Below, piece after piece: positions 15,456 through 20,540 of a DNA stretch of 64,000 bases. The stretch is from positions 1-64,000 of the forward strand of contig NZ_LPVY01000012.1 in NCBI RefSeq assembly GCF_001613805.1, written 5' to 3'. The notes beneath the pieces are model-generated. The model did not search any database. It was not told the origin of the DNA and saw nothing but the letters and a program-made list of their open reading frames with translations. Each line of letters begins with the position of its first letter. Position 1 is the stretch's first letter. A program made the translations under genes and the position numbers. The DNA comes from Thalassospira lucentensis (GTDB taxonomy: Bacteria; Pseudomonadota; Alphaproteobacteria; Rhodospirillales; Thalassospiraceae).

Positions 15456-15781
15456 GCTTCTTCGACCGTCAATCTATGGATGTATAGATTGACGGTTGTT
15501 ACCAACGATTTATAAAAGGTCTGCAGTTTTTGTGTACTTTCGGGTGCCGGGGCTGCGGGCCTTTTTACTGGTGTGGGGAATCTGGCAATTTCTGACAGAT
15601 TGTGCTTGGGGCTTGCGGATTTTCCCCAATCGCCACATACCATTATAGATAAAACTAAATGCGACCAGGAAGGTCGCGCGAATGGTTGGTTCTGAGCAAA
15701 CATTGAAAGCGAAGTTGAATGAACGGATACAGCGCGCGCGTGCGCGTTGAGCAGTCCGGAGCGGCTGCAGGTCAGGAAACA
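15456..15781. other. Intergenic region between folP and the response regulator
   Basis: These 326 bases hold a strong perfect inverted repeat (15465-15496, listed separately) and otherwise no convincing gene. The folP transcript probably ends here and the response-regulator promoter should lie in the right half. Nothing else is seen. Confidence 0.6.
15465..15496. terminator. Perfect 13-bp inverted repeat after folP (terminator-like hairpin or operator)
   Basis: Arms ACCGTCAATCTAT (15465-15477) and ATAGATTGACGGT (15484-15496) are perfectly complementary with a 6-base loop, starting 10 bases after the folP stop. The next bases are TGTTACC, not a T-run, so intrinsic termination would be weak. 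It could instead be an operator for the downstream signalling module. Confidence 0.5.
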
Positions 15782-16513
15782 ATGGCGACTTGTGTTTTCG
15801 TGGTTGAGGACAATGCCGATCTTAATCGGGATTTGTGTGAGTACCTCGAGATGTGCGGCTTTGATGTTGTCGGTTGCGACACCGGCGCAGCGTTTCATCG
15901 TGCGCTGAAAACCAAGTCACCGGCGGCGGTCATTCTTGATATCATGCTGCCGGATGCGGATGGCTATGAGTTGGCCAAATATGCGCGCGCCAATCTTGAT
16001 TGCGGGATCATGATGCTGACCTCGCTTGCGGGGATGGATCATCATCTTACGGGCTATAAATCCGGTGCGGATGTTTACCTGACGAAAGACAGCCCGCTTT
16101 CGGTGATCGAGGCGGCCCTGCGCCCGCTGCTGCGCCGGGTTGGCAGGAGCGAGAACGAGGCGGAAGCCGAACTTGAGGCACTGGCCCGAGACGATCGCTG
16201 GACGCTCGATATGCTGAACTGGACGCTTAGCAATTCCGATGGCAATTCTTCGACCCTGACGGCGACCGAGCGCACGATTGTTCGGTTGCTGGTTGAAGCC
16301 AACGGTGCCTGGTTGACGCGCCCGGAAATTGTCATGGCACTGGGCAAGGCCGATACGGCTGAAAACTGCCGCAATCTTGATACGGCGATCCGGCGTGTCC
16401 GCCAGAAGGTGCTTCGCGAAGTTGGCGAGGAATTGCCGATCCGGACCGCTTATGGCCGTGGCTATGCCTTTACATCCTCTGCCGTTATTGTGGGCGTGCC
16501 CGAAAGCGCCTGA
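15782..16513 (+). CDS. OmpR/PhoB-type response regulator
   Basis: This 243-residue protein has an N-terminal receiver domain (about 3-120) with the acidic pocket VVEDN, the phospho-acceptor Asp53 (VILDIMLPDADG), the switch Thr/Ser in MLTSLAG and the conserved Lys in VYLTKD. The C-terminal part (about 150-235) is a winged-helix DNA-binding domain (LTATERTIVRLL, ENCRNLDTAIRRVRQKV, TAYGRGYAF). The ATG at 15782 follows CAGGAAACA; an in-frame ATG at 15719 is less likely. It faces two histidine kinase genes across a 2-base gap, so all three probably form one signalling module, although the kinases are read from the other strand. Confidence 0.92.
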   Translation: MATCVFVVEDNADLNRDLCEYLEMCGFDVVGCDTGAAFHRALKTKSPAAVILDIMLPDADGYELAKYARANLDCGIMMLTSLAGMDHHLTGYKSGADVYLTKDSPLSVIEAALRPLLRRVGRSENEAEAELEALARDDRWTLDMLNWTLSNSDGNSSTLTATERTIVRLLVEANGAWLTRPEIVMALGKADTAENCRNLDTAIRRVRQKVLREVGEELPIRTAYGRGYAFTSSAVIVGVPESA

Positions 16514-16515
16514 TC

Positions 16516-18492
16516 CTAATTGCCGAATGATCCGGTGATCTCGTCACAGGGCAGCAACAGACAAAGTTCGACACCGTCTGTACCCTTGTCGCGCATTTTT
16601 ATCGATCCACCATGTGCATCGACAATGCGCTGCGAGATATGCAGGCCGAGGGCGCTTTGCAGGGATGCTGCCTCAACCTCGCGGCGGAACAGGGCATCGC
16701 TGATGCGGCGGATTTCATCACTGTTCAAATCCTGCCCGTGATAGGGGATAACGATTTCCACAAGCCAGTCACTGTTGGGGCGTGCTGCCACATGAATGGG
16801 GGCGCCATGGGCATATCGGCGTGCCGTTTCGATCAGGTTGGTGATGGCAAGGCCGACAAGCGTGACATCGACGTAGGTTTCCAGCCCTTCGGTTCCGATG
16901 CATTCAAGCGTGATTTCGGCATCGGCGCGTGACGTGTTCGATACGAAGTCGGCCAGCAGGTGATTGACCGGCACCAGTTCACGGGCCAACGCAAAGTCGC
17001 CGTCGTCGATGCCATCCTTGTTGAGGAAAATATCCACCAGACGGGATAGTTTTCGTGCCTGATCCTGAATTCGCTGCAGGCGGTCCGTCACATCGCTTCG
17101 TGCTTCGCGCAGGCGCAGCGAAAGCATTTCGGACGATCGTTGAATGACGGCAAGCGGTGTGCGGAATTCATGGGAAAGCATGGAAATCAGTTTGCGCTGT
17201 TCACCGACAAGCGATGTTGTTGCCGCGGCGATTTTGACCATGTCCATGCGTTCTTTTTCGATTCTGGACAGGCGAAAGCCCATGATCACGCTCATGGCGC
17301 ACATATGGAAAAACAATGTGAACTGATGCAGTCCGAGCCGCAGTGGCGTGGCTTCGATCAGGCCTGCATGTGTCAGTTGCAGCAAGACGGCAGCCCCTGT
17401 CGGAAGGGCAAGCACAACGAAATAAAGCCATAACAGCCATTCGGTCGGGGCGCGTATGATCCGGTAGGCGAGGACAATGCAGAATGTCGTCAGGAGTACG
17501 GCATGCAGGGGCACAATATAGGTACCGTAAAGCGCGTAAAAATTATTGGTTGCGGTCAGTGCGCAGGCAATTGAAAGCACGCAATAAATTTTGATGATCC
17601 TTGCCACGACATTGTTCTGGCGGTTCAGGTCGAGAATATAGAACCACAGGAAAATGGTGGCCGCAGCAGCCATGGCATTGCTTCCACCAACGATCAGATC
17701 ATTGGCATAGGGCCATTCGGGTTGAAGGATCGACAGTGCAAGGCCACTTGCCGATGATGCAAGGGTCCCGATCGACAGGACACAGGATCCATATGCCGCG
17801 ATGGCCCGGTCACGTGCCAGTGTTCCCAGAATGATGTAAACAACCCCCAGCATCAGAATAACGCCGAAATAGATGCTTAGTCCGGAATCCCGCAAGGTCA
17901 GGCTGGAAACCAGCTGATTGGTGGGCCACAGCTTGGCCATAAGGAACTGAGTGCTGTTTGATTTGGTTCGGATAACAAGCACATAATCGCCGGCTTCCAG
18001 CGGGGGGAAGCGGTCGACCTGTTCACTGCCTTTTATTGGCCGCTGGCTTGCCGGGACATGGTCCCCCATCCGGCTTTGCCAGAAATGTCGCGATGTTCCC
18101 TGTTTGATCAGATAAACATCGATGAAGTTCATATAGCTTGGGCGAATTTCAAGATGCAGCGGTTCGTTTAATCCTTCGGGAACCGAAAGCGCCAACCGGT
18201 ACCAGACGGTGTCACCGGTATAACCAAAACTTGGAATGCCGGGGCTGGGGGCAAAGTTTTCGGCCGGCATTTGCAGGATGTCTTCAAGTGTCAGATCATT
18301 TGTCCTGTCTTCAAGTGACAGAACATGATTATGCAGATTAACCGGGCTGGAAATTCTCGGCAGAAGTGTCAGTTTGCCAAATTCCGCAGCCCTGGCCGAT
18401 GACAGGATCGCCATCCCGAACAGCAATGTCGTGACAGCCAGCATGACGTGTTGCCAAACAGAATATCCAGACAGGGTTTTCCGGTGGCTCAT
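16516..18492 (-). CDS. 7TMR-DISM sensor histidine kinase with degenerate ATP-binding domain (putative pseudokinase)
   Basis: The 658-residue protein has a signal peptide (to about residue 36, SSARA), a periplasmic 7TMR-DISM extracellular domain (about 45-190, with TGDTVWYRLAL), seven membrane segments (about 205-405) and a HisKA domain with the phospho-acceptor His441 in SMLSHEFRTPLAVIQR. The C-terminal ATPase domain is badly eroded. The N-box reads NLIETARRYA, with Thr where the Mg/ATP-binding Asn is expected. The G1 box is YHGQDLN instead of DNGPGI, and the G2 box reads SALGLHIS instead of GxGLGL. It should therefore be unable to bind ATP normally but could still accept or pass on phosphate. 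It overlaps the upstream paralogue by four bases (ATGA), so the two are coupled. Confidence 0.9.
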   Translation of the reverse strand: MSHRKTLSGYSVWQHVMLAVTTLLFGMAILSSARAAEFGKLTLLPRISSPVNLHNHVLSLEDRTNDLTLEDILQMPAENFAPSPGIPSFGYTGDTVWYRLALSVPEGLNEPLHLEIRPSYMNFIDVYLIKQGTSRHFWQSRMGDHVPASQRPIKGSEQVDRFPPLEAGDYVLVIRTKSNSTQFLMAKLWPTNQLVSSLTLRDSGLSIYFGVILMLGVVYIILGTLARDRAIAAYGSCVLSIGTLASSASGLALSILQPEWPYANDLIVGGSNAMAAAATIFLWFYILDLNRQNNVVARIIKIYCVLSIACALTATNNFYALYGTYIVPLHAVLLTTFCIVLAYRIIRAPTEWLLWLYFVVLALPTGAAVLLQLTHAGLIEATPLRLGLHQFTLFFHMCAMSVIMGFRLSRIEKERMDMVKIAAATTSLVGEQRKLISMLSHEFRTPLAVIQRSSEMLSLRLREARSDVTDRLQRIQDQARKLSRLVDIFLNKDGIDDGDFALARELVPVNHLLADFVSNTSRADAEITLECIGTEGLETYVDVTLVGLAITNLIETARRYAHGAPIHVAARPNSDWLVEIVIPYHGQDLNSDEIRRISDALFRREVEAASLQSALGLHISQRIVDAHGGSIKMRDKGTDGVELCLLLPCDEITGSFGN

Positions 18493-20540
18493 GACGGATT
18501 TCCTTCGCGGGAAACAGGCATGGCTGGCGGATCAAGATTATCGGTTCGTGCGGCTTCGATATTGTTGTTGGTCAGTTCCCGGTCATAAGGCAAACGGATC
18601 AGAATGGTCGTGCCGCCGGTTTCACCGACGCTGATTGTCATCCGGCCACGATGGGCATTGATGATCCGGTTGGTAATGTGCAGACCCAAGCCGACACCAT
18701 GGGTGCTGCCTGATGTATTGCCGCGATAGAACGCTTCTGAAGCCAGTGCCAGATCATCCTGGGATATTCCCGGCCCGTTGTCGGTCACGCGGATATAGAC
18801 ATTGCCATCGCTTCGATGGGTGAAACCGATACGAACACTGGCATTCGGGGCATATTTCCGGGCGTTTTCAATCAGATTGCTCAGTGCCCGTTCGATCAGG
18901 GTGCGGTCGATCCGGATAACGGTGAAATCGGTTTCGCCCAGATCGACATCATGATCCGGGTTTTCGCGTTGACGCCGTTTGACCAGATCCTTCAGGAACG
19001 GGGCCATAATGGTTGGTTTGGGCGAAATACTGAAATTGGTACTGTCCAGGGTTTCCTTGGTCAGGAACACATTAACCAGTTCTGACAGTTGCGAGGCATT
19101 GCTGCGGATGGTCGCGATACGGCTTGTGACAGCTTCGGGGGCGTTCTGAACATGCAGCGCGACCATTTCCGCCGCGCGCTGGATAATCGCAAGCGGTGTC
19201 CGGAATTCGTGGGACAGCATGGTAATGAATTCACGCTGCTCGTCCGCGAGCTGGTTGGCGCGCGTATTGCTGCGGTAGGCCGAAACGCGCTGATTGGCGA
19301 GCTCATGCGTTCGTCCGGCCATCGCGATCCCCAGCAACAGCAAATGTGCAAGGGATGCCACCTGATAACAGTTGCTGGTAAAGACATTGGCCGGGACGAT
19401 GCCCATCAGCATCAAAAGATGCACGATCGCCGCAACCGCAGGCAAACCAAGAGCCACAAAATACACGCGCAGCATTCGGGCATTTGATCTGGTCCAGCCG
19501 AAATAGAACAGATATCCGAGCAGGATCAGCAGGACACCGATATGTGGCAGGAACATGCCGCGGGCAAAATAGATATAGGTGTCACTGACCGATGTAAGGG
19601 CACATAGACCGGCAAACGTGGCATAAATCGCCATGGCCCTGAAAACATTGCGTTTAAACCGGTCCAGTCCAATGATGTAGGCCCACATCATAACACTGGT
19701 TGCAATCGAAAATGCCGTACCCGATCCGGTGATCGCGTCACTTGCCCGCTGCCACGTTCCAGCCAGAAGAAGATGGGCATATCCCGAAATACCCGCCGTC
19801 GCGGTGAACAGGGCAAGAATGTAAAGGCCGTACCAGATAATCGCCCGGTCACGGATCAGCAAACCGAGCGTGAAATAGACCATAAAGCCGATAAAAAGAA
19901 TGCCGAGATAAAGGCCATACAGGAACGTATCCTGCACGTTTTCGGCAATCAGAACCGTATCGGATTTGAGATGTGCATTCAAAAGCTGGGCGCTGTTGCT
20001 GGAAACGCCAATCACCAGCCAGTAACTGCCCGCAGGCAGGTTTGGCCAAGTGCTCAGATGCTGTCGCCCGCGGGCTTCTGATGCATTCGGGGTAATATGG
20101 TCACCGACGATGTTGTTCCAGACCGGCAATTGGGTCTGGCGATCAAGAATGGTCAGCGCGATCCGGTTCAGATAGGGCGGCGAAATTTCCAGATAGCGTT
20201 TGAATTGAAGGGGTTCAGCACCGGCTTGTGTGACATGGATCTGTATGCGGTACCAGACGGTATCAAGCGTGTAACCCGCACCTACAGAGCCAACAACCGA
20301 GGTGAAATCGTCTGCGGGAAGGCTTGCGACCTCGGATGCGGTGCGGGCCTGCCGGTCTGCTTTCAGCCGTTCAATCAACGGGGTAAGGTCGATATTGTCC
20401 TCGTCTTCGGAATAGGATCCGATGACAAGTTCATGATTGCCAGGATGGGCAAGGGCAGGGCGGATCATGGAAATCATCAAAAAGATGACCTGTAATATGA
20501 TCACAACCATATAGCCGTTGCGGTAACCGACTTTCCGCAA
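18489..20540 (-). CDS. 7TMR-DISM sensor histidine kinase (intact paralogue)
   Basis: This 683-residue protein has the same architecture as its downstream neighbour: signal peptide (to about 31, RPALA), extracellular DISM domain (about 38-195, with TLDTVWYRIQI), seven membrane helices (about 205-410), HisKA with His444 in TMLSHEFRTPLAIIQR, and a full HATPase domain. Here the N-box is NLIENARKYA, the G1 box DNGPGISQDD and the G2 box GVGLGLHIT, all canonical. It shares extended similarity with the next gene in every domain, so the pair arose by duplication. 7TMR-DISM proteins sense small extracellular ligands, often carbohydrates; the ligand here is unknown. The likely partner is the response regulator at 15782-16513. 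Confidence 0.93.
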   Translation of the reverse strand: MRKVGYRNGYMVVIILQVIFLMISMIRPALAHPGNHELVIGSYSEDEDNIDLTPLIERLKADRQARTASEVASLPADDFTSVVGSVGAGYTLDTVWYRIQIHVTQAGAEPLQFKRYLEISPPYLNRIALTILDRQTQLPVWNNIVGDHITPNASEARGRQHLSTWPNLPAGSYWLVIGVSSNSAQLLNAHLKSDTVLIAENVQDTFLYGLYLGILFIGFMVYFTLGLLIRDRAIIWYGLYILALFTATAGISGYAHLLLAGTWQRASDAITGSGTAFSIATSVMMWAYIIGLDRFKRNVFRAMAIYATFAGLCALTSVSDTYIYFARGMFLPHIGVLLILLGYLFYFGWTRSNARMLRVYFVALGLPAVAAIVHLLMLMGIVPANVFTSNCYQVASLAHLLLLGIAMAGRTHELANQRVSAYRSNTRANQLADEQREFITMLSHEFRTPLAIIQRAAEMVALHVQNAPEAVTSRIATIRSNASQLSELVNVFLTKETLDSTNFSISPKPTIMAPFLKDLVKRRQRENPDHDVDLGETDFTVIRIDRTLIERALSNLIENARKYAPNASVRIGFTHRSDGNVYIRVTDNGPGISQDDLALASEAFYRGNTSGSTHGVGLGLHITNRIINAHRGRMTISVGETGGTTILIRLPYDRELTNNNIEAARTDNLDPPAMPVSREGNPS

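Follow-up and report, generated by a model that had tools for sequence, protein, structure and literature searches.

We describe a pair of adjacent sensor genes in a 64,000-nucleotide stretch of the Thalassospira lucentensis genome (contig NZ_LPVY01000012.1, positions 1 to 64,000; hereafter the window). The upstream gene, U, encodes an intact 7TMR-DISM histidine kinase, and the downstream gene, D, encodes its paralogue, which judged by sequence is a pseudokinase: the ATP site is lost and the phospho-acceptor box is kept. This lopsided pair lies next to the gene of a single response regulator (RR) in every genome of the genus that was compared. Our preferred reading, to which we give slightly better than even odds (about 55%), is that D is a phosphatase and heterodimer subunit resembling RetS of Pseudomonas aeruginosa, which adds a second ligand input and acts as a brake in a one-regulator system, probably controlling surface adhesins. 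The genes and the relevant parts of D are as follows.

18489-20540, minus strand: gene U, 683 amino acids from a TTG start, 7TMR-DISM histidine kinase (N, G1 and G2 boxes intact).
16516-18492, minus strand: gene D, 658 amino acids, predicted pseudokinase (7TMR-DISMED2, 7TM, HisKA, degenerate HATPase_c), with an orthologue in 29/29 genomes of the genus.
15719-16513, plus strand: gene RR, OmpR-type response regulator (Response_reg and Trans_reg_C).
17926-18327, minus strand: 7TMR-DISMED2 periplasmic sensor domain of D (Pfam).
17278-17877, minus strand: seven-helix membrane domain of D, 7TMR-DISM_7TM.
17170-17172, minus strand: phospho-acceptor His441 of D, in SMLSHEFRTPLAV; H, E, T and P invariant in 29/29 genomes.
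16810-16839, minus strand: N-box of D, NLIETARRYA, with Thr at the position of the Mg-ligand Asn.
16726-16746, minus strand: G1 region of D, PYHGQDL (YHGQDLN), with Tyr at the Asp position.
16639-16665, minus strand: G2 region of D, QSALGLHI (SALGLHIS), with QSALGL in place of the GVGLGL of U.

A first-pass annotation of the window had called U and D paralogues that share every domain, and a Pfam comparison bears this out, all four domains being above cut-off in both proteins. 7TMR-DISMED2 scores 75 bits in D and 29.1 bits in U (cut-off 22), 7TMR-DISM_7TM 40 and 55.9 bits (cut-off 29), and the HisKA of D 42.4 bits. For HATPase_c, the comparison which that annotation had recommended, the scores are 85.3 bits for U and 33 bits for D (cut-off 26.4). 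The two proteins are 32% identical over 595 aligned columns (E-value 6e-102, single comparison), and theirs are the sole 7TMR-DISM_7TM genes found in their genome. In single-chain AlphaFold models, the order of elements is alike (mean predicted local distance difference test, pLDDT, 73.2 and predicted template modelling score, pTM, 0.52 for U; 70.6 and 0.44 for D), the models being too weak in the DHp domain (dimerisation and histidine phosphotransfer) and in the lid to judge the nucleotide pocket.

The same annotation held that only the upstream gene keeps its ATP boxes and that D is an apparent pseudokinase, and the D motifs it quoted (HEFRTP, NLIETARRYA, YHGQDLN and SALGLHIS) read exactly so. 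The boxes of U are NLIENARKYA (N), DNGPG (G1) and GVGLGLHI (G2). Residues of the ATP site have textbook roles, among them Mg ligand and adenine contact. Orthologues were counted in 29 Thalassospira genomes, with the columns of D aligned to those of U. U has the canonical residue at the N-box, G1 and G2 columns in 29/29 each. In D, the column of U's second N-box Asn holds Thr in 23 genomes and Asn in 6, and the G1 Asp column holds Cys in 20, His in 6, Tyr in 3 and Asp in none. The first G2 Gly is present in 1/29 D and the second in 4/29, and the last one, of LGL, is retained in 29/29. An orthologous D with normal N, G1 and G2 boxes, which the annotation had proposed to look for, was found in 0/29 genomes. 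The H, E, T and P of HExxTP are invariant in all 29. Compared with an active kinase, D thus has the HisKA domain and the H-box His, and fails in the ATP site (N-box Asn, G1 Asp, G2 Gly). This asymmetry, conserved in 29/29 genomes, supports the pseudokinase assignment, and D is predicted not to use ATP. An insertion of about 20 residues, ending near FYEKK, is present in the ATP-lid region of D in five genomes (G009, G010, G013, G017 and G019).

The phospho-acceptor of U is His in 28 of the 29 genomes and Tyr in one (G006, locus L043). The Tyr codon, TAC, is read in T. lucentensis DSM 14000, NZ_ATWN01000001.1 (L079), and the two copies are one assembly. The close relative G005 has CAC at this codon, and in G006 the His of D is intact.

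U lies upstream of D, on the same strand, and their frames share a 4-base-pair (bp) overlap, which is present in most of the Thalassospira genomes compared. The order folP-RR-D-U-glmM is found in 29/29 genomes, with RR convergent with the pair, i.e. not co-transcribed with it. Residues E30, D31, D74, T101 and K123 of RR are invariant in all 29, and by its sequence RR is catalytically complete. That D brings RR a second sensor input, as the annotation had suggested, fits this gene set throughout.

Ratios of nonsynonymous to synonymous substitution (dN/dS) were obtained for 16 orthologue pairs. Over the whole gene they ranged from 0.037 to 0.280 for D, the top value coming from a pair with a dS of 0.02, and from 0.057 to 0.191 for U. 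For the HATPase domain of D the range was 0-0.232, and the value was above that of U in 11 pairs, below it in 2 and tied in 3. Such ratios indicate that D is under purifying selection. Domain conservation was compared over 28 genomes for each gene, G020 having been dropped. Mean pairwise identity in HisKA was 0.779 for D versus 0.740 for U, with 37 versus 29 invariant positions of 68, and in HATPase 0.531 versus 0.606, with 21 versus 35 invariant positions of 146. In DISMED2 it was 0.477 for D versus 0.407 for U, and in 7TM it was about equal (0.455 versus 0.458). The pattern in these alignments is that of a sensor and a DHp domain retained on a relaxed yet constrained ATPase fold. Since the asymmetric pair is maintained across related species, the 'dead' copy has the look of a functioning regulator rather than of a gene in decay.

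Sequencing error or local decay is ruled out as the source of D: the gene is open and syntenic in 29/29 genomes, it has changed by substitutions and not by frameshifts, its dN/dS is well below 1, and the G1 Asp is missing from 29/29. Seven D matches carried flagged in-frame stops. In those genomes the D frame runs uninterrupted through the aligned kinase, and we therefore take the flagged stop to be the one that ends D.

A tree was built from 17 U, 17 D and 13 outgroup rows, leaving out the ATPase domain and with RetS not among the rows. It joined the 34 U and D rows with support values of 98/91; the D clade was supported at 100/98, and the U clade more weakly, at 88/73. The G1 loss is common to all D, and the N-box loss is found in 23. 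This is most simply read as a single duplication that predated the divergence of the sampled genomes and was followed by loss of G1 first and of the N-box later, in the lineage of the 23.

The DHp domains of U and D are each other's best match among the 30 HisKA loci of their own genome (53% identity over 66 residues, 73 bits), the next-best match scoring 39 bits for D and 38 bits for U, and the helix that faces RR is near-identical between the two. A mutual best match is expected of recent paralogues; shared docking of RR and formation of a mixed dimer are plausible from it.

In the mechanism that we favor, D would have arisen by duplication of a 7TMR-DISM histidine kinase, and U would supply the phosphate for RR. 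D would be unable to use ATP and would keep the complete DHp active surface (HExxTP); on this ground we propose that both U and their common RR are its targets. It would act through a U:D mixed dimer, would dephosphorylate phosphorylated RR in a HExxT-dependent manner, might lower the autophosphorylation of U, and would have its activity set by the ligand of its own DISMED2. Since HExxT is invariant in D, a phosphatase role, which the annotation had not listed, appears at least as likely as that of acceptor or inhibitor.

RetS is the nearest studied analogue. It is described (PMC5992135) as having a degenerate HATPase without G-boxes, no autophosphorylation and a retained HExxT in HisKA; it takes phosphoryl groups, is a phosphatase toward its partner GacS, and inhibits GacS autophosphorylation. 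RetS and LadS both carry 7TMR-DISMED2 (PMC7695008), so that RetS resembles D in receptor, in degenerate ATP boxes and in the kept HExxT. The RetS network controls biofilm, a further likeness. RetS differs in being an orphan hybrid kinase: it has receiver (REC) domains, and its partner is unlinked and belongs to another sensor type. D, by contrast, is without REC (no receiver domain at E-values up to 1 in a Pfam scan), and its partner is its own sister paralogue, U, encoded in the same operon beside the regulator gene of both. A RetS kinase structure matches the U profile at an E-value of 2.5e-11, and it is absent from the 33 matches of D at E-values up to 1e-5. D does not appear to be a RetS orthologue: it has no receiver domain, and the U and D sister clades, the D-U E-value and the match of RetS to the U profile only all argue against common descent of D with RetS. 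As an analogue of RetS, D looks independently evolved, operon-paired and non-hybrid.

Three points weigh against the RetS-like phosphatase reading. The N-box Asn is retained in the D of six genomes (G025 together with G009, G010, G013, G017 and G019), and in G025 it is accompanied by a near-normal G2. The 33 bits of D in HATPase_c exceed the Pfam cut-off of 26.4, so a folded ATPase domain with residual nucleotide binding is possible. Finally, the analogy is partial, because RetS acts on a hybrid partner via REC domains, which U and D lack.

Among the alternatives, D could be a dedicated phosphate acceptor: in a mixed dimer, the ATPase of U would phosphorylate His441 of D in trans, and phosphorylated D would pass the group to RR, the two forming a split kinase. 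The invariant His of D, the higher conservation of its HisKA relative to that of U, and the Tyr of U in G006 (T. lucentensis DSM 14000), which leaves D's His as the only one there, speak for it. We nevertheless consider it doubtful, as U retains its own His in 28/29 genomes and does not need D as acceptor there, as the Tyr comes from a single assembly and might reflect an error of sequencing or else a recent loss, and as an invariant H and T are equally expected of a phosphatase. A stronger version, which we regard as somewhat speculative and likewise doubtful, makes U and D a natural split kinase with a logic like that of HER2-HER3: U would be the ATP site and D an obligate second surface, phosphate-accepting and RR-docking, with its own sensor. 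Signalling in T. lucentensis DSM 14000 would then pass wholly by U-to-D trans phosphorylation, and the output would be giant adhesins.

It is rather improbable that D works apart from U, as a D:D homodimer which dephosphorylates RR and never pairs with U. The intact HExxT and the near-identical RR-facing helix would suit such an enzyme, but the 4-bp overlap and the mutual best match of the DHp domains suit joint assembly, without proving it. Still less credible is a non-enzymatic decoy, in which D merely blocks U by dimerisation and its His is dispensable. The lost ATP site is in keeping with it, and precedents exist (reported for the ChrS pseudokinase and for DivL; PMC9491836), but a dispensable His-box should drift, and that of D has not done so in 29 genomes. 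That D is on its way out by ordinary decay, is a sequencing error, or is still an active kinase has a very slim chance: its ATPase is under looser constraint than that of U, with a higher dN/dS in 11/16 pairs, yet the gene is open, syntenic and lacking the G1 Asp everywhere.

Beyond RetS, three systems compare with U and D. LadS of P. aeruginosa is likewise a 7TMR-DISMED2 receptor kinase feeding a partner system; it differs in using a phosphorelay through its own receiver, and it forms no heterodimers with GacS or RetS (PMC4866733). An allele of ChrS in Corynebacterium glutamicum, an ATPase-dead kinase acting with the paralogous kinase HrrS on one regulator, parallels D and U, but it is a laboratory frameshift and not a conserved natural gene, and its His is dispensable (PMC9491836). 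In DivL/CckA of Caulobacter, too, a pseudokinase controls a true kinase, with other sensors. DivL has Tyr in place of His and an ATP site that can be bound, the reverse of the loss in D.

What is known of histidine pseudokinases comes mostly from individual examples (RetS, DivL) that sit within complicated networks. RetS is already a known instance of an ATP-less 7TMR-DISM kinase working with a kinase; the form described here, in which the partner is a paralogue from the same operon, a single regulator is served and the history is stepwise, is a new variant as far as our searches reach. We found no published account of the U-D pair in titles and abstract openings, most subscription journals lying outside the coverage. 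Within this one genus the duplication can be traced, as can the step-by-step loss of the ATP site beside a retained phospho-acceptor box, and both the lone regulator and a probable output are in view. The six genomes with the N-box Asn represent an intermediate state, and an unrelated tandem pair whose two ATP sites are both intact offers a contrast. As the system consists of three genes followed through one genus, the role of an ATP-less kinase for its partner is directly testable in it.

Related genes were sought more widely. In the order outside the genus, a single related gene is present in each of 10 genomes out of 199 sampled; the boxes are normal in those that were aligned, and several of the genes adjoin a regulator gene. 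In a class sample of 289 genomes, only G244, from another order, has two adjacent DISMED2 matches. Its tandem 7TMR-DISM kinase pair (L123, G244:C1:864000-876000) is unrelated to U and D and adjoins a regulator gene, and both of its ATP sites are normal; tandem duplication by itself, then, does not cost a kinase its ATP site. Among the matches listed for a phylum sample of 398 genomes, two adjacent DISMED2 pairs were seen by eye, in G728 (L284) and G734 (L285), and both read from sequence, without a family scan, as GGDEF proteins and not kinases. No second natural case of the U/D asymmetry was found in the class sample or among the matches listed for the phylum sample, in a search that was not exhaustive.

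The likely output was approached through a repeat that precedes RR.

15581-15597, plus strand: box TCTGGCAATTTCTGACA upstream of RR, a 10-bp direct repeat of TCTGnCA.

The box, TCTGnCA(3 nt)TCTGACA, is matched without mismatch at RR in 29/29 genomes, and RR presumably binds it. With one mismatch allowed, the 29 genomes hold 97 matches (29 of them at RR) versus 14 for a reversed control. Part of this excess is inherited coding sequence, in one conserved gene, which we take to be oxidoreductase-like, and in one gene adjoining the locus, presumably DinB-like. Several non-coding sites precede genes of giant adhesins (LEPR-XLL, DUF4347, cadherin-like repeats) or autotransporters. For an independent set, we searched the 1.5 kb preceding the domain at each of the genus's 25 DUF4347 matches (L216-L240), at up to one mismatch. 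The box was found at 12/25 loci versus 0/25 for the reversed pattern, and it was present at 12/20 long genes and 0/5 short ones. Six of the 12 were absent from the hit list that had prompted the search; of the remaining six, five are orthologues of one gene, and at these the box is oriented away from the adhesin. The system probably controls surface adhesins.

DUF4347 genes are absent from the window's own genome. The sole exact box there is that of RR, and five more are found at up to one mismatch, four in coding frames and one intergenic (L213). A looser pattern gave 15 matches in this genome versus 4 for the reversed control, and 105 versus 33 in six genomes. The flanks of 8 of the 14 non-RR loose matches in the own genome were read: three fall inside frames, one is close to a contig end, a PAS-GGDEF gene and a P-type ATPase gene are each preceded by one match, and the remaining two, which overlap, precede an RTX-repeat gene. 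The RTX-repeat and PAS-GGDEF genes, candidates for the output in this genome, have one-mismatch matches only.

Some further arrangements were seen. In L274 (G001:C55:199500-205000, about 2874-2900), three TCTG/CCTGACA units, spaced 10 bp apart, stand in tandem some 80 bp ahead of an autotransporter gene. In L275 (G000:C8:178500-183000, about 2357-2375), a near-palindromic version of the box lies ahead of an RTX-repeat gene, and the gene ending on its other side encodes what we take to be a secretion-type membrane fusion protein; the same box sequence occurs in G007, G018, G027 and G028. Several DUF4347 adhesin genes are adjoined by genes of small secreted proteins with repeated ACxxxxYxGxxC-like starts (L208, L277, L281), often as adjacent pairs that diverge from the adhesin.

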